NCBI GenBank assembly: GCA_023263735.1 | Contig: JALQUQ010000055.1 | Coordinates: forward strand, 1 to 11,857 | Reading direction: 5' to 3' | DNA from: Paracoccaceae bacterium | Lineage (GTDB): Bacteria; Pseudomonadota; Alphaproteobacteria; Rhodobacterales; Rhodobacteraceae | Length of the DNA: 11,857 nucleotides | Made by a program: the position numbers and the translations under genes | The notes under the pieces: model-generated | Databases searched by the model: none | Told to the model about the DNA's origin: nothing | Seen by the model: only the letters and a program-made list of their open reading frames with translations | Shown here: one piece after another, positions 1 to 11,857 of the stretch | Position numbering within the stretch: the stretch's first letter is position 1 | How the letters are laid out: every line of letters starts with the position of its first letter

Positions 1-1116
1 CAACACCATCTGCTGGCTGATCGGCGCAATCTTAAGATGGCGGGTTTCCATCCAGAACCGCGACACATGATATTCGCGCGACATCGAATAGCCGCCATGG
101 AACTGCATTGCGTTATCCGCCGCCTGGAACCCGGCGTCGCTGGCCAGAAACTTGGCCGCATTCGCCTCGGGGCCGCAGGGCTTGCCTTCGTCAAACAGAC
201 GCGCGGCTTTCTGGGTGATCAGATCCGCTGCCTCAAGCCGCATCCAGCTTTCGGCAAGCGGGTGCGCCACGGCCTGATTTTGACCAATCGGACGGTCAAA
301 GACGATGCGATCCTTGGCGTATTGGGTCGCAAGGTTCAGCGCGCCTCGGCCAAGCCCGATGCAGGTTTGTGCAACCGCGATCCGCTCGGGGTTCAGGCCG
401 TCGATCAGGCAGCGGAAGCCCTTGCCCTCTTGTCCGACGATCTCATCCTCGAACACTTCGAAATTCTCGAAAACGATCTCGTTTGAATCGACCGCGTTGC
501 GCATGATCTTGTCGATGCGGTTGATCTCGGCCCCCTTCTTGCCCTTCAGGCGGGTCAGGAACAGCGTCATCCCGTCATAGGGCTTTTCCGGATTGCGCGG
601 GGCGGTGCGGGTCAGCAGCAGGATGCGATCGGCGTTTTGCGAATTGGAAATCCAGACCTTGCGCCCGTTGACCAGATACCGGCTGCCCTCTTTCTTGGCA
701 AAGGTCTTGAGCCGCGAGGTATCCACCCCGTTATCCGGCTCTGACACGCCAAAGCACATCATTTCCTCGCCACTGGCCAGTTTTGGCAGGAATTCGCGCT
801 TCATCTCCTCTGATCCGTGATGGATCACCGGGCCCGGCGGGAACACATAATATTGAAACACCGAATTGGCGTTGAACCCGCATTTCTGGCCCAATTCGTC
901 CAAAACGATCCCGCATTCGATCAGGCCCAGACCCATGCCGCCATATTGTTCGGGCATCAGCATGCCCAACCAACCGCCTTCGGCCAGCGCCTCCTTGAAA
1001 TCCCAAGGATATTGCTTGTCGCGGTCCATTTTCCGCCAATAGTCCAGATTGAACGTCTCGGCGATCTTGCTGATCGACGCGCGGATCAGGTCCAGTTCAG
1101 ATTGATCAAGTGGCAT
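1..1116 (-). CDS. Acyl-CoA dehydrogenase, C-terminus cut by window edge
   Basis: FAD-dependent acyl-CoA dehydrogenase, expected to introduce an alpha,beta double bond into an acyl-CoA in the cytoplasm and pass electrons to ETF. 372 residues are visible without a stop; family proteins are about 380-390, so roughly 15 residues are missing beyond base 1. Landmarks: FAD/substrate motif CFGVSEPDNGVDTS at residues 121-134, KVWISN at 153-158, and QFHGGYSM at 338-345. The canonical C-terminal YEGT glutamate seen in medium-chain enzymes is replaced by IAPIS (363-367). Instead Glu244 in NPERIAVA sits where isovaleryl-CoA and long-chain dehydrogenases carry their catalytic base (family knowledge, aligned by eye). 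The ATG at 1116 has GGAGG six bases upstream (1123-1127) and starts 20 bp after the ligase stop, so it is the third gene of the operon. Natural substrate unknown. Confidence 0.93.
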   Translation of the reverse strand, partial: MPLDQSELDLIRASISKIAETFNLDYWRKMDRDKQYPWDFKEALAEGGWLGMLMPEQYGGMGLGLIECGIVLDELGQKCGFNANSVFQYYVFPPGPVIHHGSEEMKREFLPKLASGEEMMCFGVSEPDNGVDTSRLKTFAKKEGSRYLVNGRKVWISNSQNADRILLLTRTAPRNPEKPYDGMTLFLTRLKGKKGAEINRIDKIMRNAVDSNEIVFENFEVFEDEIVGQEGKGFRCLIDGLNPERIAVAQTCIGLGRGALNLATQYAKDRIVFDRPIGQNQAVAHPLAESWMRLEAADLITQKAARLFDEGKPCGPEANAAKFLASDAGFQAADNAMQFHGGYSMSREYHVSRFWMETRHLKIAPISQQMVL

Positions 1117-1136
1117 TCAGTGCCTCCGATGTCGGG

Positions 1137-3071
1137 TCAAGAAGCGACCGGGATAAGGGTGAGCGGCGTCGCGATATCCAGCGCAGACATGTCGCCCGTG
1201 GGTTGGCCCAGATAACGCGCGCGGATGGCCCGCCGCATGATCTTGCCGTTCTTGGTTTTGGGCAGGCCATCGACCGGCAGGATCGCCGCCGGGATCATCG
1301 CTTTGCCCACCAGACGCGTGACCTGCTCGATCGCGGTTGAGGCGTCGAAGCGCCCGGGCGTCTTGAGCGTGACAAAAGCCACGATGACCGACCCTTTGTC
1401 AGGGTCGGGAACACCGATCACCGCAGCCTCGGCGATCTGCGGATCGGTGACCAATGCGCTTTCGATTTCGGCCGGTCCGATACGGCGGCCCGCGACCTTG
1501 ATCGTATCATCCGACCGGCCCCGAATGTGCCAATAGCCATCGGCATCGATATGGGCCAGATCGCCATGAACCCAAGTGTCGGCCCAGCGGTCCCAATAGG
1601 TGCCGAAATAGCGATCCCGGTCGCCCCAGAAGGCATGGGTCATCCCCGGCCAAGTGTTGCGCACGACCAGTTCCCCAATATCATCGGTCCGCGCCCCATC
1701 TTCGCCCAGAACATCGACATCCTGCCCAAGGATCGGCCCGGCAAAGCTGGCCGGCGACATCGGGGTGATGGTGTAATTCGTCAGGATGCCGCCGCCCGTT
1801 TCCGTGCCGCCGGTATAGTTCAGGATCGGCAGGCGTTTGCCCCCCACCGTTTCAAACAGCCATTGCCACGTCGGCACGTCCCACGCCTCTCCGGTCGAGG
1901 TAAACGCCCGAAGGGTCGAGATATCCTGTTTCGGGGCGGCTCCGTCCATCGCAGCCCGGATGCCCCGCGCCGCGGTGGGTGCCATGCCCAGAACCGTCAC
2001 GCCATTCCGCTCGACGATATCCCAAAGCCGATTTTCATCGGGCCAGTTCGGCAAGCCTTCGATCCAGACAATGGTCGCGCCAAATTGCAGCGTGCCCAAA
2101 ATCATCAGCGGGCCCAGCATCCACCCCATATCGGCGATCCAGCCAAGCCGGTCGTCGGACTGAATGTCGAAACCATATCCCCAATCCATTCCCGCCTTGA
2201 CCAGATAGCCCCCGTGGGAATGCACGATCCCCTTGGGCGCCCCTGTGGTGCCCGAGGTAAAGATGATCATCACCGGATCATTCGGGTCCATCTCTTCGGT
2301 CGGAACGGGGGGCAAGGCCTGCCCCAGATCGGCCCAATCCAGATCGCGGGGCGACGTTGCACAGGGGCCGCCATCGTGGCGAATGGTGACAATCGTTTGC
2401 AGAGCCGGTGCCTTGTCGGCCGCCGCATCGGCGACTTCCTTCATTGGCACGCGCTTGCCGCGCCGTGTGGTGCCATCGACGGTGACCAAGACCTTGACAC
2501 CCGCCGCATTCAACCGCGCCACCAAGGGGTCGGGACCATAGCCCGAAAAGGCTGGAACCCCAATCGCGCCAATCTTGGCACAGGCCAGCACCGCAATCGC
2601 CGCCTCGGGGATCACGGGCATGAAAAACGCGACGCGGTCGCCCTTTTCAACGCCAATCGATCGCAGACCCGCAGCCACGCGCTCAACCTCGGTGGCCAGC
2701 GTGGCAAAAGAGATTTCGGTCCGTTTGCCGTTGTCGCCTTCGTAAATCACGGCGGGACGTGTGTCGCTGGCGTGCCGCAGGGCACAATTCCACGCCACGT
2801 TGATCTTGCCGCCGTTGAACCACCTTGGAAAAGCATATCCGTCCGTGTCGTCGATCAGGCTGGACCAGGGCGACGAAAAGTCGATCCCAAGATCGTCAAT
2901 CGCCCTGCGCCAGAACGCCTCGGCCTGATCGACCGAGTCACGGTGGAGGCTGGCCAGATCATCATAGCCCCACCGCTTCATCGCCTTGGCCAGACGCGAC
3001 CGTTCGATCTGCGCCGGTCCCGGCACCCAAACGGCCGCCTCACGCGACCCGAAAGATGCGCGACCCTTCAT
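1137..3071 (-). CDS. AMP-forming acyl-CoA ligase, acetyl-CoA synthetase-like
   Basis: Activates a carboxylate to its CoA thioester by way of an acyl-adenylate, in the cytoplasm. The 644-residue length fits the acetyl-CoA/propionyl-CoA/acetoacetyl-CoA synthetase branch, which has an extra N-terminal domain; the WFNGGKINVAWN stretch (84-95) belongs to that domain. Adenylate-forming motifs in order: P-loop FTSGTTGAPKG (271-281), NYTGGTETGGG (418-428), the VHGDLAHID region (501-509), hinge GRSDDTIKVAGRRIGP (518-533), and the catalytic lysine Lys610 in LPKTKNGKIMRR. All key residues look intact. The start ATG overlaps the stop of the upstream lyase gene (ATGA), which suggests translational coupling. 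The acid it activates cannot be told from motifs; a short or medium carboxylate or dicarboxylate consistent with the neighbouring dehydrogenase and lyase is inferred. A true acetyl-CoA synthetase is less likely in this context. Confidence 0.93.
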   Translation of the reverse strand: MKGRASFGSREAAVWVPGPAQIERSRLAKAMKRWGYDDLASLHRDSVDQAEAFWRRAIDDLGIDFSSPWSSLIDDTDGYAFPRWFNGGKINVAWNCALRHASDTRPAVIYEGDNGKRTEISFATLATEVERVAAGLRSIGVEKGDRVAFFMPVIPEAAIAVLACAKIGAIGVPAFSGYGPDPLVARLNAAGVKVLVTVDGTTRRGKRVPMKEVADAAADKAPALQTIVTIRHDGGPCATSPRDLDWADLGQALPPVPTEEMDPNDPVMIIFTSGTTGAPKGIVHSHGGYLVKAGMDWGYGFDIQSDDRLGWIADMGWMLGPLMILGTLQFGATIVWIEGLPNWPDENRLWDIVERNGVTVLGMAPTAARGIRAAMDGAAPKQDISTLRAFTSTGEAWDVPTWQWLFETVGGKRLPILNYTGGTETGGGILTNYTITPMSPASFAGPILGQDVDVLGEDGARTDDIGELVVRNTWPGMTHAFWGDRDRYFGTYWDRWADTWVHGDLAHIDADGYWHIRGRSDDTIKVAGRRIGPAEIESALVTDPQIAEAAVIGVPDPDKGSVIVAFVTLKTPGRFDASTAIEQVTRLVGKAMIPAAILPVDGLPKTKNGKIMRRAIRARYLGQPTGDMSALDIATPLTLIPVAS

Positions 3072-3958
3072 TTGTTCTTCAACACGTCATATTGCGCGAT
3101 CACTTCGCGCGCGGTTTTCACATGGGCCAGATCGATGTGCATCCCTTCATAGGAAACGGCTGCCAGACCCCGGGTCAGCCCCAGTTCAAAAGCGTCGATC
3201 ATGCCCTGATAAAAGGCGACTTGCCCCTCGGTCGGCATAAAGACCTGATTGGCGATGGCCACATGTTTGGGATGGATCGACACCATGCCACGAAAGCCCA
3301 AACGCTTGTTCGAACGTGCAAATTCCCACGCGCCGTCGTCGTCTTTCAGATCCTGCCACAGGCCCACGATCGGAAAGGCCTTGCCCGCCGCCCGCACAGC
3401 CAAAACGGCCCGCGACCGCAGATACAGGGTTTCCTCACCCGAGGGCGTGAATTCAAATCCGATGGAGCGAGAGACATCCGCGTCTCGTGCCGTACCCGCA
3501 AACAGGGTCGCGCAACGGGGCGAAGCCGCCAGCATCGCCTCACATTCGGCATAGGCTTGGGCCGTTTCCAGCGACAACACGAATTCCAGCGACCCAGCCG
3601 CAACGCCATTGCGCCGCTCGTAATGATCAACCAGCGCCTCGGCATGCAGAATATCACGGGCACCATAGGTTTTGGGAGGAAGGAAGCCGTCGCATCCGGG
3701 CACGGCCACAACTTCCAGATCGTCCCCCATCATGCCCGTTTCCAGCGCGTTCAGCCGGACATAAATCCCCAAATCGGGGTTATCCTTGCGCAGATTGGCA
3801 ATCGTTTCGGCGACCATATGGCGCGTCTCGGACTTCATGTCCTGCGGGACCGAGTCTTCCAGATCCAAAATCACGGCATCAGCCCCGGCGGCAACGGCCT
3901 TTTCGGCCCAACCTTTCCGGTGCCCCGGCACAAAGAGCATTGATCTCGTCGGTCTCAT
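3068..3958 (-). CDS. CitE/HpcH-family beta-hydroxyacyl-CoA lyase
   Basis: Member of the HpcH/HpaI aldolase, citrate-lyase-beta-like family (TIM barrel, Mg2+-dependent), which cleaves or forms malyl-, methylmalyl- or citramalyl-type CoA thioesters. 296 residues, normal for CitE-like lyases. Visible motifs: RSMLFVPG (5-12), LDLEDSVP (31-38), YVRLN with Arg68 expected to bind substrate carboxylate, SLETA with Glu131 and the Asp161 region (expected metal ligands), and SIHPKHV (227-233). Start choice: an ATG at 3958 has AAGGAG seven bases upstream, while a GTG six bases earlier (3964) leaves only one base after the same ribosome site. First gene of the minus-strand operon, divergent from the SnoaL gene; the next gene overlaps by 4 bp. 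Whether it acts on malyl-CoA, citramalyl-CoA or another hydroxyacyl-CoA is open. Confidence 0.9.
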   Translation of the reverse strand: MRPTRSMLFVPGHRKGWAEKAVAAGADAVILDLEDSVPQDMKSETRHMVAETIANLRKDNPDLGIYVRLNALETGMMGDDLEVVAVPGCDGFLPPKTYGARDILHAEALVDHYERRNGVAAGSLEFVLSLETAQAYAECEAMLAASPRCATLFAGTARDADVSRSIGFEFTPSGEETLYLRSRAVLAVRAAGKAFPIVGLWQDLKDDDGAWEFARSNKRLGFRGMVSIHPKHVAIANQVFMPTEGQVAFYQGMIDAFELGLTRGLAAVSYEGMHIDLAHVKTAREVIAQYDVLKNK

Positions 3959-4118
3959 TGGCACACTCCTTCTTGGTGTCCCTGAGTGTCATTGGAGGGG
4001 AAGTTTCGTCAACGAAACCGGCCACCACCCCAGCCACATCCTGCCACCTGTAAAGGCATAACCGATAGCCCGCGTCCGGGCGCCAACGCTGGCTTGAATG
4101 CGCCGTTCGTCAAATGAC

Positions 4119-4135
4119 TATAGACATCGCCTATC
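4119..4135. promoter_or_regulatory. Putative LysR operator (imperfect copy)
   Basis: TATAGACATCGCCTATC matches the cluster dyad CATAGG-N5-CCTATG with three changed positions but keeps ATA-N9-TAT and T-N11-A. It lies in the 252-bp divergent gap between the lyase start (3958) and the SnoaL start (4211), 75 bp before the latter, so it could serve either or both promoters. An outward-facing CCTA-N9-TAGG overlaps it at 4130-4146. I see no convincing -35/-10 pair in this gap. Function inferred from repetition of the motif, not proven. Confidence 0.55.
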
Positions 4136-4210
4136 CAAATCTTAGGTAAACTGCTCATAGTGCAGCCAAAGGTCTTCGGCCTACTGTCACTGAAACGGAT
4201 GAGACATGAA

Positions 4211-4723
4211 ATGAACGCAGTCGATACACTCATTGCCCGATCAGAGATCGAAGATTGCATGAAACGCTATGCGCGCGGTGTGGACCGCCGCGATTGGGAC
4301 CTTGTCCGGGGCTGTTTTCATCCGGATGCCCGCGATCACCATGGCGAATTCTATGGCGACCCCGAAGAGTTCATCGAATGGGTCAAGCAGCGTCATGCGG
4401 CCGTTCCGTTTTCGATGCACTATCTGCTGAACTGCCTGATCGAATTCGTGTCGCCCGAACAGGCCTTAGTTGAAACCTATTTCTGGGCCATTCAGCGGCG
4501 CGGGGATGGGGACGCTCAAGGCGGCACCGATATCGAAGTGTTCGGGCGCTATATCGACGTCTTTGAAAAACGCGGCGATTGCTGGCGCATTGCCAATCGC
4601 AAGGTCGCCTATGACAGCACCCGCCAATCGCCCAGCACCGCACATTTGCGAAAATTGGTGGGCGTGATCGGCCAGCGCGACCGCACGGACCCCAGCTATA
4701 TGCAGTTGCAAGCCGCCGAATAG
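4211..4723 (+). CDS. SnoaL-like/NTF2-fold protein, possible dehydratase or hydratase
   Basis: 170-residue cytoplasmic protein of the SnoaL_4/scytalone-dehydratase-like group (alpha+beta cone fold). Typical features are RYARGVDRRDWDLVRGCFHPDA (within residues 19-40, with Tyr20 and Asp25), the pocket stretch MHYLLN (His70, Asn74), GRYIDVF (112-118) and a closing CWRIANRKVAYD (124-135). Tyr, Asp and His at these places are the residues used for catalysis in scytalone dehydratase and related hydro-lyases, so the pocket looks usable. Start choice: an upstream GTG at 4160 and an ATG at 4199 are in frame, but family proteins begin about ten residues before EIxD, which fits ATG 4211, with a weak GGATGAG seven bases upstream. 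Placed between the lyase operon and the LysR gene, it may supply the hydration/dehydration step missing from the pathway (inference). Other NTF2-fold roles such as isomerase or non-catalytic binding remain possible. Confidence 0.82.
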   Translation: MNAVDTLIARSEIEDCMKRYARGVDRRDWDLVRGCFHPDARDHHGEFYGDPEEFIEWVKQRHAAVPFSMHYLLNCLIEFVSPEQALVETYFWAIQRRGDGDAQGGTDIEVFGRYIDVFEKRGDCWRIANRKVAYDSTRQSPSTAHLRKLVGVIGQRDRTDPSYMQLQAAE

Positions 4724-4763
4724 GCGAAAATCGGGGCTAACCGGGGCCTACCAAGCCCAAACT

Positions 4764-4780
4764 CATAGGCCACACCTATG
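4764..4780. promoter_or_regulatory. Putative LysR operator, perfect 6-5-6 dyad
   Basis: CATAGGCCACACCTATG is a perfect inverted repeat with a 5-base spacer, giving ATA-N9-TAT and T-N11-A. It lies 113 bp before the LysR start at 4877 and 43 bp before a second copy (centre-to-centre 59 bp). A pair of dyads upstream of a LysR gene fits the recognition-site/activation-site arrangement known for autoregulated LysR genes; assignment is inferred. Confidence 0.7.
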
Positions 4781-4822
4781 ACGGCCAGCGACCCACCCCT
4801 GTGCGAAACCCTCTCGGCTTGA

Positions 4823-4839
4823 CATAGGAAGTTCCTATG
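4823..4839. promoter_or_regulatory. Putative LysR operator, perfect 8-1-8 palindrome
   Basis: CATAGGAAGTTCCTATG is a full palindrome around a single central base, the most symmetric copy in the window, again ATA-N9-TAT. A TTGACA hexamer (4819-4824) overlaps its left edge and would make a good -35 box, but I find no matching -10 at 16-18 bp. If TTGACA is the -35, bound regulator would block it, which is what negative autoregulation needs (inference). It lies 37 bp before the regulator's start codon. Confidence 0.75.
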
Positions 4840-4876
4840 AATGAGCCTTTCCCCTAGGGAAGAGGGATTACCACCT

Positions 4877-5860
4877 ATGGCAACTGTCGACGACTCGCAG
4901 GACGTGCTCAAGCTCAAGCAACTGTCCTACTTTTTGACTTTGGCGGATTACGGATCGATTTCGGCGGCAGCCAATGCCCTGAACATGGCGCAGCCGTCGC
5001 TCTCGGAAAACATCGCAAAACTGGAACGGCAACTTGATGTCAAACTGGCGATCCGCGGGTCACGCGGTATCCAGATGACCGAGGCGGGCATGATGCTGGT
5101 CAACCGCGGCCGCGATATTCTGGATGCCGTCGATCATCTGGTGCAGGATCTTCGGCTGCTGAATGGCGAACCCCGGGGGCCGGTTTCGATTGGGTTCCCG
5201 CCCTCGCTTAGCCTGCTGCTGTCGGTCCCGCTTTTGGAAACGATCCAGTTCGAACACCGTCACGTCCGGCTTCATATCGCCGAGGCAATGTCGGGCGACA
5301 TTCTGGAATGGCTGGCCAATGACCGCATAGACGTCGGATTTGTCTACGAAATTTCCGACAGCATGCCCTATATGTTTGAACCGGTCTTGACCGAAGAGCT
5401 GTTCTTGGTTGCGGCGACCGACAACTGGGATGATGAATTCGGCCCCGATGGCGTGGCCAAAAACCCGATCAGCGCCGAGCGGTTGCAGGATTTGCCCTTG
5501 GTGCTGACCAGCCCCACCCATGGCGCCCGCAAGCTCCAGGAAAAGTTTGCCCGCGCAGGCGGGTTCACCTTGAACGTGGTCGCCGCGATCGATTCATTGA
5601 CCCACATCGTCGAAATGGTCAGCCGCGCCAGCGCCTATTCGATCCTGTCGCACTGCGCGGTGATCAAGGAAGTTGCCGAGGGCAAATTGGGCCTGATCCG
5701 GATCGAAGAGCCGACCATCCGCCGCACCGCCTATATGGTGCGCAAACGGTCCCGTCCGGTGTCGAATGCCAGCGCCATCGTCGAAAACACCATCACGACG
5801 ATCATCCGGGAGCTGGTCGAACGGTATCACATTCAGGCGACTCTTCCGAACAAAGACTGA
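4877..5860 (+). CDS. LysR-family transcriptional regulator, NAC-like
   Basis: 327-residue DNA-binding regulator with an N-terminal winged helix-turn-helix (about residues 12-70; key stretches QLSYFLTLADYGSISAAA and AQPSLSENIAKLE) and a C-terminal effector-binding domain (about 100-310). The run ending in LAIRGSRGIQMTEAG resembles the nitrogen-assimilation-control (NAC) branch of the family. NAC of enteric bacteria binds ATA-N9-TAT (established), and that pattern recurs around this gene. Start choice: ATG 4877 has GAGGGA nine bases upstream and gives the usual short lead before the helix-turn-helix; an in-frame ATG at 4841 would add 12 residues and begin two bases after an operator palindrome. 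Two perfect operator dyads precede the gene, so autoregulation is likely. It is co-oriented with the SnoaL gene before it and the TRAP genes after it. The effector is unknown, probably the transported substrate or a CoA derivative. Confidence 0.93.
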   Translation: MATVDDSQDVLKLKQLSYFLTLADYGSISAAANALNMAQPSLSENIAKLERQLDVKLAIRGSRGIQMTEAGMMLVNRGRDILDAVDHLVQDLRLLNGEPRGPVSIGFPPSLSLLLSVPLLETIQFEHRHVRLHIAEAMSGDILEWLANDRIDVGFVYEISDSMPYMFEPVLTEELFLVAATDNWDDEFGPDGVAKNPISAERLQDLPLVLTSPTHGARKLQEKFARAGGFTLNVVAAIDSLTHIVEMVSRASAYSILSHCAVIKEVAEGKLGLIRIEEPTIRRTAYMVRKRSRPVSNASAIVENTITTIIRELVERYHIQATLPNKD

Positions 5861-5872
5861 TTTCGACCTCAG

Positions 5873-5910
5873 CCTATAGGATGGCACTTCAACAGCCACA
5901 GGGACCTATA
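5873..5910. promoter_or_regulatory. Possible operator half-sites before the TRAP genes
   Basis: Two half-sites of the cluster motif, TATAGG (5875-5880, inside the 8-bp palindrome CCTATAGG) and CCTATA (5905-5910), face each other with start-to-start spacing of 30 bp, about three helical turns, instead of the 11 bp seen in the compact sites. They sit in the 175-bp gap between the LysR stop (5860) and the TRAP small subunit (6036). The rest of the gap shows no clear terminator and no clear promoter. Weak evidence on its own; listed because of the matching half-sites. Confidence 0.35.
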
Positions 5911-6035
5911 CCTTTGACGGCAAGCCCCTTCTGGCGCGATCCATACGGCACATCATATCCGCGCACCGAGGAGACGCGGATCGGCATAAAAAGTGCGTAC
6001 CGACAGGGTGAGGAACGCACCAACCCGGAGGAAAC

Positions 6036-6557
6036 ATGACCCGCAACCCGCTTGAGTGGCTGGCCGAGACGTTGCTCTCGATCACGTCAATACCGATATT
6101 GGCCATGATGGTTCATGTCACCGCCGACGTCGTTTTGAAATATACCGTCAAAATGCCGATTCAAGGCACGCTCGAGATTTCGGCCTACTATTACATGGTC
6201 TCGATCGTCGTTTTGCCGATGGCCCTCATCGAATTGACCCGTCAATCCATCGCGGTTGACCTGTTCTATCAGATGATGGGGCCGCGCCTGCAGGTCGTTG
6301 TCACCGGGATCGTGCTTTTGGTCAGCACCATTGGCTACTGCGGTTTGGCCGCCGCCACCTTCCCCGATGCGCTCCTATCCTTGGAGAAACGGGAAATCGT
6401 CATGGGCACGATCAACATCTACATCTGGCCGTCCCGTTTCATCATGCCGGCCGCGTTGTTCATGGCAGGTCTGGTCTGCTTTTATCACTTCATCCGCTTG
6501 GTGATCAGCCCAGCAGCGCGCACGCAGCTGACGGCGATCCACCAAATCGATTCCTGA
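6036..6557 (+). CDS. TRAP transporter small membrane subunit (DctQ type)
   Basis: 173-residue inner-membrane protein with four hydrophobic helices at roughly 12-34, 48-66, 86-108 and 132-155, the DctQ layout. It partners the large DctM subunit in a tripartite ATP-independent periplasmic transporter driven by the sodium or proton gradient. Family signs include the early helix ending near DVVLKYTVKMPIQGTLEIS (32-50) and the conserved-type VLPMALIELTRQSIAVDLF (58-76). GGAGG at 6027-6031 lies just before the ATG. The large subunit follows after 18 bp. The third component, the periplasmic DctP binding protein, is not in this window, so it must be encoded elsewhere or outside the edges. Substrate unknown, usually a carboxylate or sugar acid. 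Confidence 0.9.
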   Translation: MTRNPLEWLAETLLSITSIPILAMMVHVTADVVLKYTVKMPIQGTLEISAYYYMVSIVVLPMALIELTRQSIAVDLFYQMMGPRLQVVVTGIVLLVSTIGYCGLAAATFPDALLSLEKREIVMGTINIYIWPSRFIMPAALFMAGLVCFYHFIRLVISPAARTQLTAIHQIDS

Positions 6558-6575
6558 GCCGAGGGGCACTGATCC

Positions 6576-7886
6576 ATGTCTATGCTTGAAATCGGATTTG
6601 CCGCGGTTGGCGTGGTGCTGGCGTTGATCGCCTTGCGCGCCCCCATCGGCATCGTCCTTCTGACCGTGTCCTTTGGTGGCGTCTGGGCTGCCTTGGGGTT
6701 CAAGGTCGCCGTGGGTATCGCCCGCGCCATTCCCTTTGACTTTATCGCGAACTGGTCGTTCAGCGCCGTGCCGATGTTCCTGCTGATGGGCTATATCGCG
6801 TCGAATGGCGGGCTGACGGACGGTCTGTTCAAGGCCCTGAAAATCCTGTTGCGTTGGCTTCCGGGTGGTCTGGCCTCGGCTGGTGTGGCCGCTTGCGCCA
6901 TGTTCGCCGCCGCGTCGGGGTCTTCGGTGGCAACCGCTGCTGCCATGTCGCGGATCGCGGTTCCGGAAATGGTAAAGCAGGGCTATGACAAAGCTCTGGC
7001 CGCTGGCGCCATCGCTTCGGCCGGCACCTTGGGGTCGCTGATCCCGCCGTCGATCATCATGATCGTCTATGCCATCTTCGCCAACGTTTCGGTCGGCAAA
7101 CTGTTCATGGCTGGCTTTATTCCGGGTATCCTCTCGGCGGTCATGTACATGACGATGATTACCGTTCGCGTCATGGCCAATCCCAAACTGGCCCCGCGCG
7201 TCACGGAAAAGCCCCAACCCGGCGAGACCATGGCCGCGATCAAGGAAGTCTGGCCGCTGCCGACGCTGATCCTTGGCGTTCTGGGCGGGATCTTCGCGGG
7301 CGTCATGACCCCGACCGAAGCCGGTGCCGTGGGCGCGTCTTTGGCCGTGGTGCTGGCCGCTGCGCGCCGCAGCCTGAGCGTCAAGGTCCTGATGACGGCC
7401 GTGCGCGATGCTGCCGTGGGCACCTCGACCGTGTTCGTGATCGCCGTCGGCGCCACGATGTTCACCAGCTTCATGGGTCTGACCGGGGTTCCCCGTGCCG
7501 TCTCCGAGGCGCTGCTGTCCATCGGTGGTGACAATCCGATCACCCTGATCATCATGATCGGCATCGTCTACATCCTGCTGGGCATGTTCATCGAATCGAT
7601 CGGCATCATGCTTTTGACCCTCCCGATCTTCTTCCCGATGCTCCAAGCCGCCCATGTCGATATGATCTGGTTCGGGATCATCGTGGTCAAGCTGCTTGAG
7701 ATCGGGATGATCACCCCGCCGGTTGGTCTGAACTGCTATGTCATCAGTTCTTCGCTGAACGGATTGGTCAATCTGACGACCGTTTTCCGCGGTGCGCTGT
7801 GGTTCATCTTCACTGATCTGGTGACGCTGACCCTGATCATCGCATTCCCGGCACTGTCGCTCTGGTTGCCCTCGATCATGAGCTGA
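6576..7886 (+). CDS. TRAP transporter large permease subunit (DctM type)
   Basis: 436-residue integral membrane protein, normal length for DctM, with about 12 hydrophobic segments; this is the transport channel of the TRAP system. Recognisable family motifs: AVPMFLLMGYIASNGGL (64-80), ASGSSVATAAAMSRIAVPEM (113-132), GTLGSLIPPSI (150-160), GVMTPTEAGAVGA (242-254) and GMITPPVGLNCYVI (377-390). These two related halves reflect the internal duplication typical of the ion-transporter superfamily. GAGGGG (6561-6566) precedes ATG 6576 by nine bases; a second ATG two codons later is also possible. It is transcribed with the small subunit, and a hairpin terminator follows at 7922-7967. No binding-protein gene follows, which is unusual for a TRAP operon. 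Confidence 0.95.
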   Translation: MSMLEIGFAAVGVVLALIALRAPIGIVLLTVSFGGVWAALGFKVAVGIARAIPFDFIANWSFSAVPMFLLMGYIASNGGLTDGLFKALKILLRWLPGGLASAGVAACAMFAAASGSSVATAAAMSRIAVPEMVKQGYDKALAAGAIASAGTLGSLIPPSIIMIVYAIFANVSVGKLFMAGFIPGILSAVMYMTMITVRVMANPKLAPRVTEKPQPGETMAAIKEVWPLPTLILGVLGGIFAGVMTPTEAGAVGASLAVVLAAARRSLSVKVLMTAVRDAAVGTSTVFVIAVGATMFTSFMGLTGVPRAVSEALLSIGGDNPITLIIMIGIVYILLGMFIESIGIMLLTLPIFFPMLQAAHVDMIWFGIIVVKLLEIGMITPPVGLNCYVISSSLNGLVNLTTVFRGALWFIFTDLVTLTLIIAFPALSLWLPSIMS

Positions 7887-7903
7887 TGTTCAGGCTCTGA
7901 CAC

Positions 7904-7920
7904 CATAGAATACCTATGGA
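7904..7920. promoter_or_regulatory. 17-bp palindrome related to the operator, spacing variant
   Basis: CCATAGAATACCTATGG is a perfect 6-5-6 dyad built from the same CATAG/CTATG half-sites, but these are two bases closer (ATA-N7-TAT) than in the other copies, so T-N11-A is not kept. It sits 17 bp after the TRAP large-subunit stop and just before the terminator. It could be a further binding site for the downstream ABC operon or a remnant. Not a terminator itself, since no T-run follows. Confidence 0.4.
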
Positions 7921-7921
7921 T

Positions 7922-7967
7922 ACGGCGGCGCTCGCCTTTCTTGGCGCGCGCCGTCATTTCATTTTTA
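7922..7967 (+). terminator. Rho-independent terminator after the TRAP genes
   Basis: GC-rich inverted repeat with outer arms ACGGCG (7922-7927) and CGCCGT (7949-7954) and inner arms CGCC/GGCG around a TTTCTT loop, with small bulges, followed by a T-rich run (CATTTCATTTTTATTC). It closes the SnoaL/LysR/TRAP side and separates it from the ABC operon. Confidence 0.7.
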
Positions 7968-8011
7968 TTCATATATTACAGAGGGTTATTCAAGGCGGGC
8001 GCAATGTGCAT

Positions 8012-8029
8012 CATAGGTTTTAACCTATA
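8012..8029. promoter_or_regulatory. Putative LysR operator before the ABC operon (N6 version)
   Basis: CATAGGTTTTAACCTATA contains the perfect 7-2-7 dyad ATAGGTT-TT-AACCTAT. Half-sites are identical to the copies near the LysR gene but the spacer is one base longer (ATA-N10-TAT). It lies 105 bp before the permease start at 8135 and after the terminator, so it is placed to control the ABC transporter operon as part of the same regulon (inference). Confidence 0.62.
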
Positions 8030-8087
8030 GCATGGCCTTTCGTTTTCGGTTTTTCTAGACCCAGTTCGCGCAACAAAATTAGCGCGC

Positions 8088-8120
8088 CGCACGCGGAGGA
8101 CAGATTCAATCTGGCGTGCG
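8088..8120 (+). other. Leader hairpin just before the permease ribosome site
   Basis: Outer stem CGCACGC (8088-8094) pairs with GCGTGCG (8114-8120); inside it AGAT (8102-8105) pairs with ATCT (8109-8112) around a TCA loop. The left internal loop holds GGAGGAC, a Shine-Dalgarno-like run with no start codon at the right distance. The real ribosome site GGGAGG (8123-8128) begins three bases after the hairpin. It may tune translation or mRNA stability; no known riboswitch class is recognised. Confidence 0.4.
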
Positions 8121-8134
8121 CAGGGAGGGTTCGA

Positions 8135-9118
8135 ATGCTGAAATCAAAGGCTCTGGGTGGCATCACCCAGGGAAAAATCGTCACAGCCATCGATGTGGCC
8201 ATGCTTGCAATTTTTGCGGCCACATTGCCGGGGTTCGCGGGAACCGACAATATGCTGTCGTTGCTGCAGAACGTGGCGGTTCTGGGCATTCTCGGGCTTG
8301 GCATGGCCATAACGATCATCGGGCGCGGCATCGATCTGTCGATGATTGCGATCGCCTGCATGCCGGTCGCCTGGGCCTTTCTTGAAATGGCAAACGGCGT
8401 TTCGGCATCGGTCGCCATCGGACAGGCAGTGGCCTTTACCGTTGTGGTCGGGCTGCTGAACGGCTGGCTGATCACCTATGTCGAAGTTCCGGCGATTTTT
8501 GCGACCTTGGCTTCGGGCATCGTGGTTTTCGGGACCATCCAGTATTTTTATGTAAACACCGATCTGGTTTCGATCCCGTCGCAGATGGGCGCAATGGCCG
8601 ATCTGATCCGCGGCACCACGCTGGGGCTGCCGAACAGCGTGCTTGCCTTTCTGCTGATTTCGGCCGGCGTCGCGCTGTTCTTGCGGTTTCGCACGGCGGG
8701 TCGGTTTGTTTATGCCGTGGGCGACAACCCGATGGCGGCGCGGGTCACCGGGGTTCCGGTTCGCACCAACATCCTCATGCAATATGTGATGTCGGCATTG
8801 ATCGCGCTTTTGGCCGGTTTCTTTCTGGCCACCACGGTGGATGGGGCCAACACGCGCCTGTTCAACTCGACCATGATCTATGACGTGATCCTGATCGTCG
8901 TTCTGGGGGGCATTGGTCTTTCCGGCGGCAAGGGCTCGGTCGCGAACGTTTTGGCCGGAACCGCGATGATCGGCATCCTGACCAACGCGATGACCATCCT
9001 GAACGTGGATTACTACACGCAGAACCTCGTGAAGGCCGCCATCCTTCTCGTGACCATTGCCATCGACAGCGCGCTGAACCCGCGTGACGAGCAAACCTCG
9101 CAACAAGGCGACATCTAA
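8135..9118 (+). CDS. Sugar-type ABC transporter permease (RbsC family)
   Basis: 327-residue inner-membrane permease of the BPD_transp_2 family, which forms the channel for ribose/xylose-type ABC importers. Family signature GRGIDLSMIA (63-72) corresponds to the usual GGIDLSVG motif, and the cytoplasmic coupling stretch is VVLGGIGLSGGKGS (255-268). Hydrophobic helices fill most of the chain. GGGAGG at 8123-8128 sits six bases before the ATG. It heads an operon with the binding protein (47-bp gap) and a second permease after a terminator; two different permeases suggest a heterodimeric channel. The ABC ATPase that must energise it is not in the window, probably beyond the right edge. Substrate class 'sugar' comes from family membership only; sugar acids, polyols or lactones are possible. 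Confidence 0.93.
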   Translation: MLKSKALGGITQGKIVTAIDVAMLAIFAATLPGFAGTDNMLSLLQNVAVLGILGLGMAITIIGRGIDLSMIAIACMPVAWAFLEMANGVSASVAIGQAVAFTVVVGLLNGWLITYVEVPAIFATLASGIVVFGTIQYFYVNTDLVSIPSQMGAMADLIRGTTLGLPNSVLAFLLISAGVALFLRFRTAGRFVYAVGDNPMAARVTGVPVRTNILMQYVMSALIALLAGFFLATTVDGANTRLFNSTMIYDVILIVVLGGIGLSGGKGSVANVLAGTAMIGILTNAMTILNVDYYTQNLVKAAILLVTIAIDSALNPRDEQTSQQGDI

Positions 9119-9165
9119 ACTTGAAAGGCGTGAACAACGCGCCGAAACACCAAGGGAGAAGATCA

Positions 9166-10212
9166 ATGTTTTCCAAGCTTAAGAAGCTGGCCTTTACGGC
9201 TGCGGTTGCAGCGGCCATGCTGCCGGCCGTCACGGCCCATGCGCAAGACGTCGAAGGCGACGGCAAGCCGTGGCATGATTATTATGACGCGCTGAAGGGC
9301 AAGAAGGTTGCCTTTGTGCCGATGTCGTTGTCCTTCGACCTCGCCCAGATCTACGACGGCGCGATGAAGCAATACGCCGATTACATGGGCTTTGAATACA
9401 TCTCGCGCGACCCGAACTGGTCGGTTGAAGGCGCGGTCCAGATCGCTGAACAATATGTCGACGAACATCCCGACGTCATGGTCATCCACCCGCTGGACGA
9501 CAAGGCCTTTACCCGTGTGGTCAAAAAGGCCCAGAAGGAAGGCATCTATGTGATCTTCATGAACCTGCGGAATGGTTCGGGCACGGATTCGATGGAAGGC
9601 GACGCCTACATCGGCCCCGACTTCTTCCAGTTCGGTCAGCGCAAGGTTCAATTGGCCGCCGATTACTGCAAAGACAGCGAGTCGAAAAAGATCATCATGG
9701 TGCAGGCGGGTGCCACCAACTCGGTTGGCATCACCGAAACCAATGGCTCGCTTTGGGAACTGAAGCACAACCACCCGGAACTGAATCTGGTGGCGATGCA
9801 ATCGGCCGAGGCTGACCCGGCAAAGGCCAAAGCCATCGTCGCGACCGCGCTGAAACAGCATCCGGATGTCTGCGCGATCATCGACCAGTGGGAAGGCGGC
9901 GCCATCGGCATCCCGCCGGCCGTCGAAGAGGCAGGCCTGCGCGACAAGATCAAGATCATCACCTCGGGTGGCGGTTCGCAGGTCAATGGCTGCGACATGA
10001 TCAACGCTGGCAAGTATGACGCCTACATCAGCTACAACGCCGGTCACCAGACCTACATGCTGAAATCGCTGATCGCTCAGGTTCTGCAAACCAAACCGGT
10101 CCCCGGCGAAACCCAGTTCTCGGTCTACAACGACTATGTCGTCATCACCAAAGACACGATGACCGCAAACTCGTGCTGGGACATCAACTACTACACCCGT
10201 CCGTTGAAGTAA
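9166..10212 (+). CDS. Periplasmic sugar-type ABC substrate-binding protein
   Basis: 348-residue secreted receptor of the Peripla_BP_4 (RbsB-like) type that captures substrate for the flanking permeases. A signal peptide is clear: MFSKLKK, hydrophobic core to about residue 22, and cleavage after AHA at 26 with mature start QDVEG. The mature part shows the family pattern KKVAFVPMSLSFDLAQIYDG (46-65), DVMVIHPLDDKAFTRVV (103-119) and HPDVCAIIDQWEGGAIGI (232-249). Four cysteines remain after processing (168, 236, 276, 337), more than usual for this family; paired disulfides are possible. Start choice: ATG 9166 has GGGAG seven bases upstream and gives a clean signal peptide; a TTG at 9121 would add 15 charged residues in front. 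A strong terminator follows, which would make this the most abundant product of the operon. Confidence 0.93.
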   Translation: MFSKLKKLAFTAAVAAAMLPAVTAHAQDVEGDGKPWHDYYDALKGKKVAFVPMSLSFDLAQIYDGAMKQYADYMGFEYISRDPNWSVEGAVQIAEQYVDEHPDVMVIHPLDDKAFTRVVKKAQKEGIYVIFMNLRNGSGTDSMEGDAYIGPDFFQFGQRKVQLAADYCKDSESKKIIMVQAGATNSVGITETNGSLWELKHNHPELNLVAMQSAEADPAKAKAIVATALKQHPDVCAIIDQWEGGAIGIPPAVEEAGLRDKIKIITSGGGSQVNGCDMINAGKYDAYISYNAGHQTYMLKSLIAQVLQTKPVPGETQFSVYNDYVVITKDTMTANSCWDINYYTRPLK

Positions 10213-10225
10213 TCGCTTTGAATTG

Positions 10226-10258
10226 GGACCGGCGGCGCCCTGCTGCCGGTCCTTTTTT
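10226..10258 (+). terminator. Strong hairpin terminator between binding protein and second permease
   Basis: Stem GGACCGGCGGC (10226-10236) pairs with GCTGCCGGTCC (10242-10252) over 11 bp with one G-T wobble, loop GCCCT, followed at once by six T. It starts 13 bp after the binding-protein stop and ends 27 bp before the next start codon. Likely a partial terminator that lowers expression of the permease relative to the binding protein, a common pattern in ABC operons. Confidence 0.85.
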
Positions 10259-10285
10259 GCCTCATGTCCAGCCGCCGGGAAGCCA

Positions 10286-11857
10286 ATGTCCGACATCAAC
10301 CACACTGACCAGACCCATCGGGCCAGCTTGCTCAAACGGCTGCGCTACAAATACATCCCGGATCACCTTATCGGCGAGGTTCTGACCAAAGCCTGGATCG
10401 ACACGGCCATTCCTGCCCTGATCCTGCTTGTGACGATCGTTGTCTTTTCCGCGCTGACGCCCGATTTCTACCGGCCAAGCAATCTTGAAAACCTGGGTCG
10501 GGTCACCGGTGAATTCCTGATCATCGCCATTGGTCAGGCCATGGTGATCATCGCTGGCGGGATCGACCTGTCGGTCGGCTCGATCTTTGCGCTGTGCAAC
10601 CTTTTCGCGATTTTCCTGATCTTTACCCTCAAGATGCATGTCTTGCTGGCCTTGCCGCTGGTGGCGCTGCTTGGGGGATTGATCGGTGCGGTGAACGGAA
10701 CCCTGATCGGGTATTTCCGCCTCCGCGCCTTTCTGACAACGCTGGTCACCCTGATCATGGGCCGGTCGCTGGCCGATATCCTGTCGGTCAAATATGGCAA
10801 CATGCTGGTCAGTGACTGGGATATCAACGGCGAAGACATCTTTGACTGGCTGGCCGATGGCACGTTCCTTGGCATGGCCTCCAGCTTTGTCGTTGCCGTC
10901 CTGACCGCCATCGCCTTTCACATCCTGCTGTCGCGCACCCGGTTCGGCTGGCACGTTCTGGCTGTGGGCGGGTCGCGTCGTTCGGCCTTTAACGCGGGCA
11001 TCCATGTGCGCCGCACCGTTTTCCTGACCTATGTCATCTCGGGCGCCATGACGGGCTTTGCGGCCTATTTCTACGCCGCCCGCCTGTCTGCCACCGGCAC
11101 CACGACCGGCATCGGCATGGAGATGATCATCATCACCTCGGTCATTCTGGGGGGCATTTCGCTGGGCGGGGGGCGCGGCTCGATCCTCAAGGCCGTTTTG
11201 GGCACCATGGTCGTGGTCACCATCACCTTCTCGCTCTTGCGGCTGGGCCTTGCCTCGGGCGGGTCGTCGCTGGTGCTGGGTCTGATCCTGATGCTGGCCG
11301 TGATCATCGACATCCGCTGGAACAAGAACCGCCACAAACTGTTGAACCGCGCCTATGTGTCGCCGACCTATCTGGCACATCCGCCGATGCCGTCGATCGA
11401 AGAGGGCTCCGCCTCGCCCTACGCCCGCCGCAACCGGCTGGATGATGTCAAGGTGATCGGCAAGAACGTTCTGGACGGGCCCGAAGACATCATCATCGAT
11501 GACGAAGGCAACCTGTTTGCTGGCACCCGCAAGGGCAACATCTACAAATTCTTCGGCCCCGATTTCGAACGCTATGAATTGTTTGCCCATACCGGTGGGC
11601 GTCCCTTTGGGATCACGGTCGACAAGGACGGATCGATCCTGTGCTGCGTGGCGGGTTCGGGTCTTTACCGCATCACCAAAGACCGCGAGGTGATCGCCCT
11701 TTCCACCCAGACCAATCGCAGCCTGTTTTCGATCAACGATGATAGCCGCGTGCGCATGGCCGACGACCTCGACATCGCGCCGGATGGCAAGATCTATTAC
11801 TCCGATCCGATCAGCCGCTATGACGCCTCGGAATGGCAGTATGACGCGCTAGAAGGC
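10286..11857 (+). CDS. ABC permease fused to an SMP-30/strictosidine-synthase-like propeller, 3' end missing
   Basis: One reading frame runs from ATG 10286 to the window end (524 codons, no stop), joining two domains. Residues about 35-345 are an RbsC-type permease: GGIDLSVGSI (91-100) and VILGGISLGGGRGS (286-299), ending with a basic stretch near IRWNKNRHK that normally closes this family. A linker (about 345-390, rich in Pro, Ser and Arg) leads into a soluble beta-propeller: GPEDIIIDDEGNLFAGT (398-414), GRPFGITVDKDGSI (438-451) and MADDLDIAPDGKIYYSDP (491-508) are strictosidine-synthase/SMP-30 blade motifs. Family propellers are about 300 residues, so around 150 are missing. Since permeases of this family end in the cytoplasm, the propeller is expected there, perhaps hydrolysing an imported lactone or sensing substrate (inference). 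No stop, frameshift or ribosome site is seen at the junction. The start has only weak upstream AGCC/GGGAAG context (10278-10283). Confidence 0.88.
   Translation, partial: MSDINHTDQTHRASLLKRLRYKYIPDHLIGEVLTKAWIDTAIPALILLVTIVVFSALTPDFYRPSNLENLGRVTGEFLIIAIGQAMVIIAGGIDLSVGSIFALCNLFAIFLIFTLKMHVLLALPLVALLGGLIGAVNGTLIGYFRLRAFLTTLVTLIMGRSLADILSVKYGNMLVSDWDINGEDIFDWLADGTFLGMASSFVVAVLTAIAFHILLSRTRFGWHVLAVGGSRRSAFNAGIHVRRTVFLTYVISGAMTGFAAYFYAARLSATGTTTGIGMEMIIITSVILGGISLGGGRGSILKAVLGTMVVVTITFSLLRLGLASGGSSLVLGLILMLAVIIDIRWNKNRHKLLNRAYVSPTYLAHPPMPSIEEGSASPYARRNRLDDVKVIGKNVLDGPEDIIIDDEGNLFAGTRKGNIYKFFGPDFERYELFAHTGGRPFGITVDKDGSILCCVAGSGLYRITKDREVIALSTQTNRSLFSINDDSRVRMADDLDIAPDGKIYYSDPISRYDASEWQYDALEG

Follow-up and report, generated by a model that had tools for sequence, protein, structure and literature searches.

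A CUT2/RbsC-type permease fused to a predicted cytoplasmic six-bladed propeller and encoded beside a second propeller lacking most of the metal site

Introduction

The described systems closest to the locus presented here are the RbsABC, AraFGH and MglABC-type importers of the CUT2 class of ATP-binding cassette (ABC) transporters, which combine BPD_transp_2 channels with a Peripla_BP_4 binding protein and a double ABC ATPase. ABC importers are usually held to deliver their substrates unchanged, and we know of no CUT2 importer that carries a cytoplasmic propeller on its channel or that has a free propeller subunit. Here we describe a stretch of 11,857 nucleotides from a Paracoccaceae bacterium (GenBank assembly GCA_023263735.1, contig JALQUQ010000055.1, positions 1 to 11,857; the window, hereafter), in which an RbsC-type permease gene at 10286–11857 on the plus strand continues into a propeller related to strictosidine synthase. 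The importer shares the CUT2 components and, by our prediction, the CUT2 topology with both termini inside, but NCBIfam equivalog scores fall far under the cut-off. We computed the anatomy of the fusion, its operon, its pairing with a second propeller, the predicted topology and folds, residue conservation and gene neighbourhood.

Propellers of the fold in question occur in DFPase, Drp35, PON1 and the RPA3624 lactonase, calcium-dependent hydrolases that differ from the fusion in standing alone and are 16–20% identical to it, and in strictosidine synthase and strictosidine-synthase-like proteins, which are likewise six-bladed, carry Str_synth and SSL_N domains and have free alphaproteobacterial kin of 358–417 residues. 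TGW6 (PDB 8kg3), the rice indole-3-acetic acid (IAA)-glucose hydrolase, is a soluble plant protein without a transporter fusion and is reported to cleave an acyl-glucose ester (PMC10958001). The closest published parallel that we found is DrSOD, a natural fusion in which a propeller lactonase of the same class is joined to a Cu/Zn-superoxide dismutase rather than to a membrane transporter; that report describes Ca2+ bound by Glu, Asn, Asn and Asp together with weak lactonase activity (PMC12362111). Among the matches listed from 5.39 million open-licence papers, no title or abstract start described the present fusion or its operon, and absence there is no proof.

Results

The permease–propeller fusion is genuine. 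Translation of 10286–11857 yields 524 codons without a stop in a frame that runs off the contig end, and the product matches the Pfam families BPD_transp_2 at residues 69–338 (E 1.9e-34; 119.5 bits against a gathering score of 26.8) and SSL_N, the strictosidine-synthase-like N-terminal domain, at residues 378–422 (E 1.1e-10, above the curated cut-off). The nearest full-length homologue, P0002, is a protein of 721 residues that is 79% identical over 98% of the window fusion and contains BPD_transp_2, SSL_N, Str_synth and SGL domains. A preliminary description made from the DNA letters had proposed a fusion of an RbsC-type channel to a strictosidine-synthase/SMP-30 propeller, and the open frame, the two Pfam domains and homologues reading through in one frame bear this out. 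The channel ends near residue 345, where that description had placed its end, and the linker measures about 40 residues. With approximate bounds transferred from the P0002 model, the channel part of about ten membrane helices lies at 10394–11320, the positively charged linker, predicted to be cytoplasmic, at 11321–11446 and the start of the six-bladed propeller, supported by SSL_N, the model and the homologues, at 11447–11857, so that the window holds 524 of about 720 residues.

The window is the entire contig C510 of a 740-contig draft genome, and the contig stops inside the fusion gene. Contig C142 of this genome has, at its edge, a frame open at the contig end that matches P0002 residues 552–720 at 77% identity, and this piece (locus L110, 4764–4252, minus strand) is very probably the missing C-terminus of the window fusion; the two contig ends do not overlap and about 24 codons are in neither contig. 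Beyond the fusion C-terminus, C142 encodes a free second propeller, which we call PROP2, and a double ABC ATPase, and on the other strand a short-chain dehydrogenase and a partial family III coenzyme A (CoA)-transferase. The genome also holds a second copy of the operon, whose fusion is 50% identical over the compared part; four of its genes are complete and its ATPase is cut by a contig end.

A fragmented draft and a gene cut by a contig end are what the suggestion of a chimeric assembly or a frameshift joining two genes would have in its favour, and we consider the probability of such an artefact negligible. Long contigs and complete plasmids from many genera carry uninterrupted fusions of about 720 residues, and the window genome has another intact fusion; since full-length homologues are found in many genera, the fusion is no assembly error, and the artefact is ruled out. 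These homologues come from many Alphaproteobacteria and from a few Beta- and Gammaproteobacteria, the cases named outside Alphaproteobacteria being Variovorax, Alcanivorax, Paraburkholderia and Pantoea. In the 80 named loci, which are the best 80 of 462 relatives and were picked with the fusion itself as query, the fusion is one uninterrupted frame in all 80. A less selected test used the propeller alone as query against 386 alphaproteobacterial genomes and gave 16 matches at 456–662 bits, all in frames of 559–755 residues, in addition to the window gene as two contig pieces; the channel domain is present in the same frames except in genome G388, where the contig ends. Homologues that are always two separate genes, the outcome named beforehand as one that would expose the fusion as an error, are therefore ruled out, and only contig ends divide the window gene. 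Another 17 matches, at 171–242 bits, lie in free frames of 358–417 residues, presumably stand-alone kin, and four weaker matches are PROP2 genes. The stand-alone kin are about 28–33% identical to the propeller by tblastn over 16 loci (L121–L136), and within at most 1.5 kb on each side of these 16 loci no match to the transporter genes of the operon was found. Matches at four of these loci (L124, L125, L126 and L133) were flagged with one or two stop codons.

The fusion is patchily distributed, occurring in 9 of the 385 other genomes of the 386-genome sample, in 6 of 240 genomes of another alphaproteobacterial sample, in 11 of 396 genomes of a phylum sample (all 11 in Alphaproteobacteria), in 2 of 60 close relatives and in 15 of 72,556 plasmid records at E below 1e-100. 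The profile searches of the 386-, 240- and 396-genome samples scored only two to five candidates per genome, so copies of the fusion or of PROP2 may have been missed there. Genome G362 (contigs C25, C26 and C41) contains five fusion copies, with several operons in tandem, and locus L079 was likewise noted; multiple fusion operons in one genome suggest a family expansion with different substrates.

The propeller is predicted to lie on the cytoplasmic face of the channel. In the P0002 model (predicted local distance difference test score, pLDDT, 85.8) the helical channel extends to residue 360 and the propeller begins at residue 392; the predicted template modelling score (pTM) of 0.64 says little on how the domains are placed. 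With helices assigned by hand from this model, lysines plus arginines per loop over the 80 homologues number 4.8 in the N-terminus, 2.0 in loop 4–5, 3.5 in the coupling loop, 1.0 in loop 8–9 and 5.7 in the C-terminal linker, against 0 to 0.17 in the opposite-side loops; one inner loop (93–99) is also zero. This sharp alternation predicts that both termini of the fusion are cytoplasmic, in line with the side assigned by the preliminary description, and the charge distribution disfavours a propeller on the outer face.

The tethered propeller is modelled as a six-bladed fold whose best match is TGW6, a sugar-ester hydrolase and the closest solved structure, followed by strictosidine synthase, DFPase, the RPA3624 lactonase, Drp35 and PON1. 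By sequence its closest solved relatives are strictosidine-synthase-like (E 1e-21 to 3e-30), and the gluconolactonase 3e5z matches at only 1.3e-4. Glu59, Asn167, Asn226 and Asn272 of TGW6 are reported as calcium-chelating positions that it has in common with DFPase, a gluconolactonase and Drp35 (PMC10958001). By alignment these positions map to E403, D/N496, N554 and N601 of P0002, and they are kept in 80 of 80 homologues, position 496 being Asp in 56 and Asn in 24. The window covers the first two, a Glu codon at 11483–11485 and an Asp codon at 11762–11764 on the plus strand, and the piece on C142 has both Asn. The loss of all calcium and active-site residues that the preliminary description held would speak against an enzyme was thus not seen. 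The aligned solved strictosidine synthases read PGG and PGN where the fusion reads PNG and PDN, so the position of N554 is lost in them. The position of Glu309 of strictosidine synthase, which we take to be its catalytic glutamate, aligns with an invariant Thr (T679 of P0002), in a segment whose alignment scores low, at 11–13 bits.

The fusion belongs to an operon of fixed gene order, namely a first permease (perm1), a sugar-type binding protein, the fusion, PROP2 and a double ATPase. In the window, perm1 is an RbsC-type permease and putative partner channel subunit at 8135–9118 on the plus strand (BPD_transp_2, E 1.6e-23) that has the same place in homologous operons, and the periplasmic sugar-type binding protein (Peripla_BP_4, PF13407, E 1e-37) lies at 9166–10212 on the plus strand with a likely ATG at 9166. 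The ATPase on C142 (L110, 1662–3194) contains two PF00005 stretches. Across the 80 loci PROP2 is present in 80, the ATPase in 78, the binding protein in 78 and perm1 in 75–76; in loci without perm1 or the ATPase the contig begins or ends inside the operon. Judged from its channel domain, sugar-type binding protein, double ATPase and predicted cytoplasmic termini, the importer is of the CUT2/RbsC type. A binding-protein profile searched against the PDB retrieved mostly general CUT2 sugar binders of known structure. Four invariant cysteines are common to the binding proteins in an 18-sequence alignment that includes window positions 9172–10209, a feature that is, to our knowledge, unusual among CUT2-class binding proteins.

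Fusion and PROP2 genes are paired one to one in the sampled alphaproteobacterial genomes. A PROP2 profile found 17 PROP2 genes against 17 fusions in the same ten of the 386 genomes, each PROP2 adjoining a fusion (the one in G213 was flagged with a stop), and in 70 of the 80 loci the stop codon of the fusion and a start codon overlap as [AG]TGA. The PROP2 gene of the window genome lies on C142 (L110, 3194–4255), beyond the end of the window contig, which is why the preliminary description missed it. This PROP2 matched no Pfam family at E 0.01, and no single Pfam family matches more than 15 of 48 PROP2 relatives; in plasmids PROP2 is annotated as 'hypothetical protein' or 'strictosidine synthase' and the fusion mostly as 'SMP-30/gluconolactonase/LRE family protein'. 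Comparison with hhalign nevertheless shows PROP2 to be homologous to the tethered propeller, and its model (pLDDT 89.4) is a six-bladed propeller with much the same set of fold matches, though weaker, which rules out an unrelated gene. No signal peptide was visible by eye in 12 PROP2 N-termini. In Brucella pituitosa the PROP2 gene (L055, 10046–11136) seems interrupted, with two matched pieces in different frames.

PROP2 differs from the tethered propeller at the metal site. With positions mapped residue by residue from the hhalign output in 76 of the 80 loci (L035 and L049, cut by contig ends, L055, which is short, and L079, with a mis-called start, were left out), 72 of 76 sequences are acidic at the first ligand position (70 with Asp, 2 with Glu) and 71 have Thr or Ser at the second; Asn occupies the third in only 16, and 72 carry Arg at the fourth. 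PROP2 has therefore lost three of the four calcium-ligand positions that characterise metal-dependent propeller hydrolases. Conservation of the ligands in one partner and their loss in the other make the tethered propeller look metal-competent and the free PROP2 metal-dead.

The gene neighbourhood points to acyl-CoA metabolism around part of the loci. Neighbours in the 80 loci include zinc alcohol dehydrogenases (26), AMP-binding ligases (25), short-chain dehydrogenases (24), LysR regulators (21, identified by eye), carboxymuconolactone-decarboxylase-like proteins (20), enoyl-CoA hydratases (16) and AraC regulators (15), and 36 of the 67 long named loci have one or more of five acyl-CoA gene kinds nearby. 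As controls we used plain RbsC-type loci from genomes that hold the fusion. In a first comparison acyl-CoA genes lay near 5 of 16 same-genome fusion regions and 1 of 34 controls, or 0 of 33 once the fusion-bearing locus L163 was moved. That control set came from 7 genomes, and one genus supplied 30 of its 34 loci; hence 14 fusion and 31 plain regions were added from 9 further genomes, and L189, which contains no propeller, was excluded from the fusion regions. The combined set has acyl-CoA genes near 12 of 30 fusion regions, compared with 2 of 64 controls (p 1e-5; p 0.006 with labels shuffled only within genera), and two or more kinds near 7 of 30, compared with 0 of 64; the enrichment is weaker than in the first comparison and still present. 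The enriched kinds are AMP ligases, enoyl-CoA hydratases, acyl-CoA dehydrogenases and CoA transferases. Carboxymuconolactone-decarboxylase-like genes (8 of 30 against 0 of 64) and AraC genes (5 of 30 against 0 of 64) are also enriched, short-chain and zinc dehydrogenases showed no enrichment in the same comparison, and PROP2 is present in all 30 fusion regions.

The enrichment of acyl-CoA neighbours fits the release of a carboxylic acid better than that of a plain sugar lactone. The preliminary description had offered a sugar lactone as an example substrate, and a CUT2 channel with a sugar-type binding protein, the SGL domain and the DFPase- and lactonase-like fold would all suit an importer whose propeller acts as a gluconolactonase-type enzyme on the sugar lactones that are taken up. 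The propeller is, however, nearer in sequence to strictosidine-synthase-like structures than to the gluconolactonase, the solved structure nearest to it is that of a sugar-ester hydrolase, and acyl-CoA enzymes make up the enriched neighbours, sugar-acid genes as such not having been searched for; we regard a sugar-lactone importer as improbable. Of the preliminary interpretation, the fusion, the predicted cytoplasmic face and the metal residues therefore stand, and the sugar lactone as a guide to function does not.

Neighbour modules follow subfamilies of the fusion. Loci with Asp at position 496 have modules of AraC, AMP ligase and hydratase, of thiolase and an OB-fold protein, or of CoA transferase and hydratase. 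The window belongs to this group, and its neighbourhood fits: an acyl-CoA dehydrogenase, an AMP-forming ligase resembling acetate/propionate-CoA ligases and a CitE/HpcH-like lyase stand in a row at 1–3964 on the minus strand, and a dehydrogenase and a CoA transferase are found on C142. Among the module labels, LysR, CitE, HMG-CoA lyase, aldehyde dehydrogenase and phosphotransferase were assigned by inspection. In L021 (12654–15338) an AMP-binding CoA ligase and an enoyl-CoA hydratase are fused in one protein of 895 residues encoded directly downstream of the transporter, and L019 and L020 have similarly long downstream genes. A second module, of a class IV aminotransferase, a carboxymuconolactone-decarboxylase-like protein and a zinc alcohol dehydrogenase, occurs at L029, L030, L037, L056, L078, L080, L091 and other loci with Asn at position 496 and is also annotated thus in Shinella plasmid p1.

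These neighbourhoods bear on whether the two propellers form a non-catalytic scaffold on the cytoplasmic face that recruits the downstream CoA ligase or other enzymes. A free PROP2 that lacks a metal site and any signal peptide visible by eye, encoded beside the fusion, would suit such a role, as would the clustering of CoA enzymes near part of the loci; the metal-ligand positions are nonetheless kept in the fusion and lost in PROP2, and one common docking partner is unlikely because the neighbouring enzymes differ by subfamily. We consider the scaffold unlikely, if somewhat less so than the sugar-lactone importer.

The remaining genes of the window lie upstream of the operon. After the genes at 1–3964, a SnoaL-like protein and a LysR regulator are encoded on the plus strand, and positions 6036–7886 hold the TRAP permease genes DctQ (small) and DctM (large), so that two different importers adjoin in the window; no DctP binding-protein gene was found among the ten window proteins scanned with Pfam.

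Discussion

The reading that we favour, with a probability of roughly one half, is a CUT2/RbsC importer with a tethered cytoplasmic propeller that is proposed to act as a hydrolase and with PROP2 as its pseudoenzyme partner. We infer metal binding by the tethered propeller, hydrolysis, the class of substrate and contact between the two propellers. In such a machine, the binding protein would deliver a polar ester, glycosyl ester or lactone, ATP-driven import would release it beside the tethered propeller, and the propeller would hydrolyse it using bound calcium, thereby coupling uptake to hydrolysis; in the subfamily of the window the freed acid may pass to the CoA ligases and acyl-CoA enzymes encoded nearby. 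PROP2 would probably dock on the same assembly; it varies as much as the binding protein does and may adjust specificity or stabilise the complex. Together, a channel and a binding protein of the sugar type, an intact metal site and, at many loci, nearby acid-activating enzymes make import, hydrolysis and CoA activation the simplest reading; the hydrolysis of an acyl-glucose ester by TGW6 is no more than suggestive.

Several observations weigh against this reading. The binding protein resembles sugar binders, and TGW6, the nearest solved relative, has the four positions but is reported to show no bound calcium (PMC10958001). None of the five acyl-CoA gene kinds occurs in 18 of 30 fusion regions or in 31 of 67 named loci, the query genes for neighbours were drawn from fusion loci, and the contrast within genera is small (1 of 6 against 0 of 30, 1 of 6 against 1 of 19 and 2 of 3 against 1 of 11). 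In the Asn-496 subfamily of 24 loci, carboxymuconolactone-decarboxylase-like genes are found in 20 and class IV aminotransferases in 13, along with zinc dehydrogenases and hardly any CoA ligase, so an acid-to-CoA step is not general. In one fusion copy (L163, 10741–12887, genome G024) the reading frame is broken within the channel part; as the propeller remains in frame with the channel tail, this copy seems to be a damaged fusion rather than two genes. Finally, in the 34 of 80 loci where all parts were cleanly called, conservation is 66% for the tethered propeller, 68% for the ATPase, 56% for the fusion's own channel, 47% for the binding protein and 43% for PROP2. A propeller nearly as conserved as the ATPase, despite differing neighbour pathways, also fits a role independent of substrate; the tethered propeller may perform one common reaction or a mechanical task, leaving adaptation to the substrate to PROP2 and the binding protein.

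Regulatory domains control some other ABC importers, and the conservation pattern brings a comparable role into view. As a sensor or gate, the tethered propeller would bind the imported substrate or Ca2+ and, together with PROP2, regulate the ATPases, a possibility that we rank behind the hydrolase and hold to be distinctly more plausible than a scaffold. Conservation near that of the ATPase and above that of the channel where neighbour pathways vary, the constant pairing with a degenerate propeller and the lack of visible calcium in TGW6 are consistent with it. Yet the four metal-ligand positions are kept in every homologue while PROP2 has lost three, a pattern for which a purely structural propeller has less reason, and the top fold matches are mostly enzymes.

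This locus does not define a new kind of protein, because all its parts come from known families and databases already contain the architecture under generic names; a CUT2 importer with one tethered and one free propeller is a variant on known families. A hydrolase-like propeller on the channel with a metal-site-less sister would couple transport to metabolism, and would give a function to genes now named 'SMP-30/gluconolactonase/LRE family protein', 'ABC transporter permease', 'strictosidine synthase' or 'hypothetical protein'. As a well-defined unit, the operon is amenable to gene removal in culturable rhizobia and roseobacters. That certain bacteria of soil and sea encode an uptake channel with an enzyme-like propeller on its inner face, next to the gene of a second, altered propeller, suggests processing of imported molecules on entry. 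In its most far-reaching form, which we offer as a tentative proposal and with less confidence than the hydrolase itself, this would be an ABC importer family in which one machine carries out both uptake and the first catabolic hydrolysis, with a channel-borne calcium-dependent hydrolase, an obligate pseudoenzyme propeller that sets specificity or activity, and the substrate trapped as the free acid; if true, such one-machine uptake and hydrolysis would count as a type of group translocation by an ABC importer.
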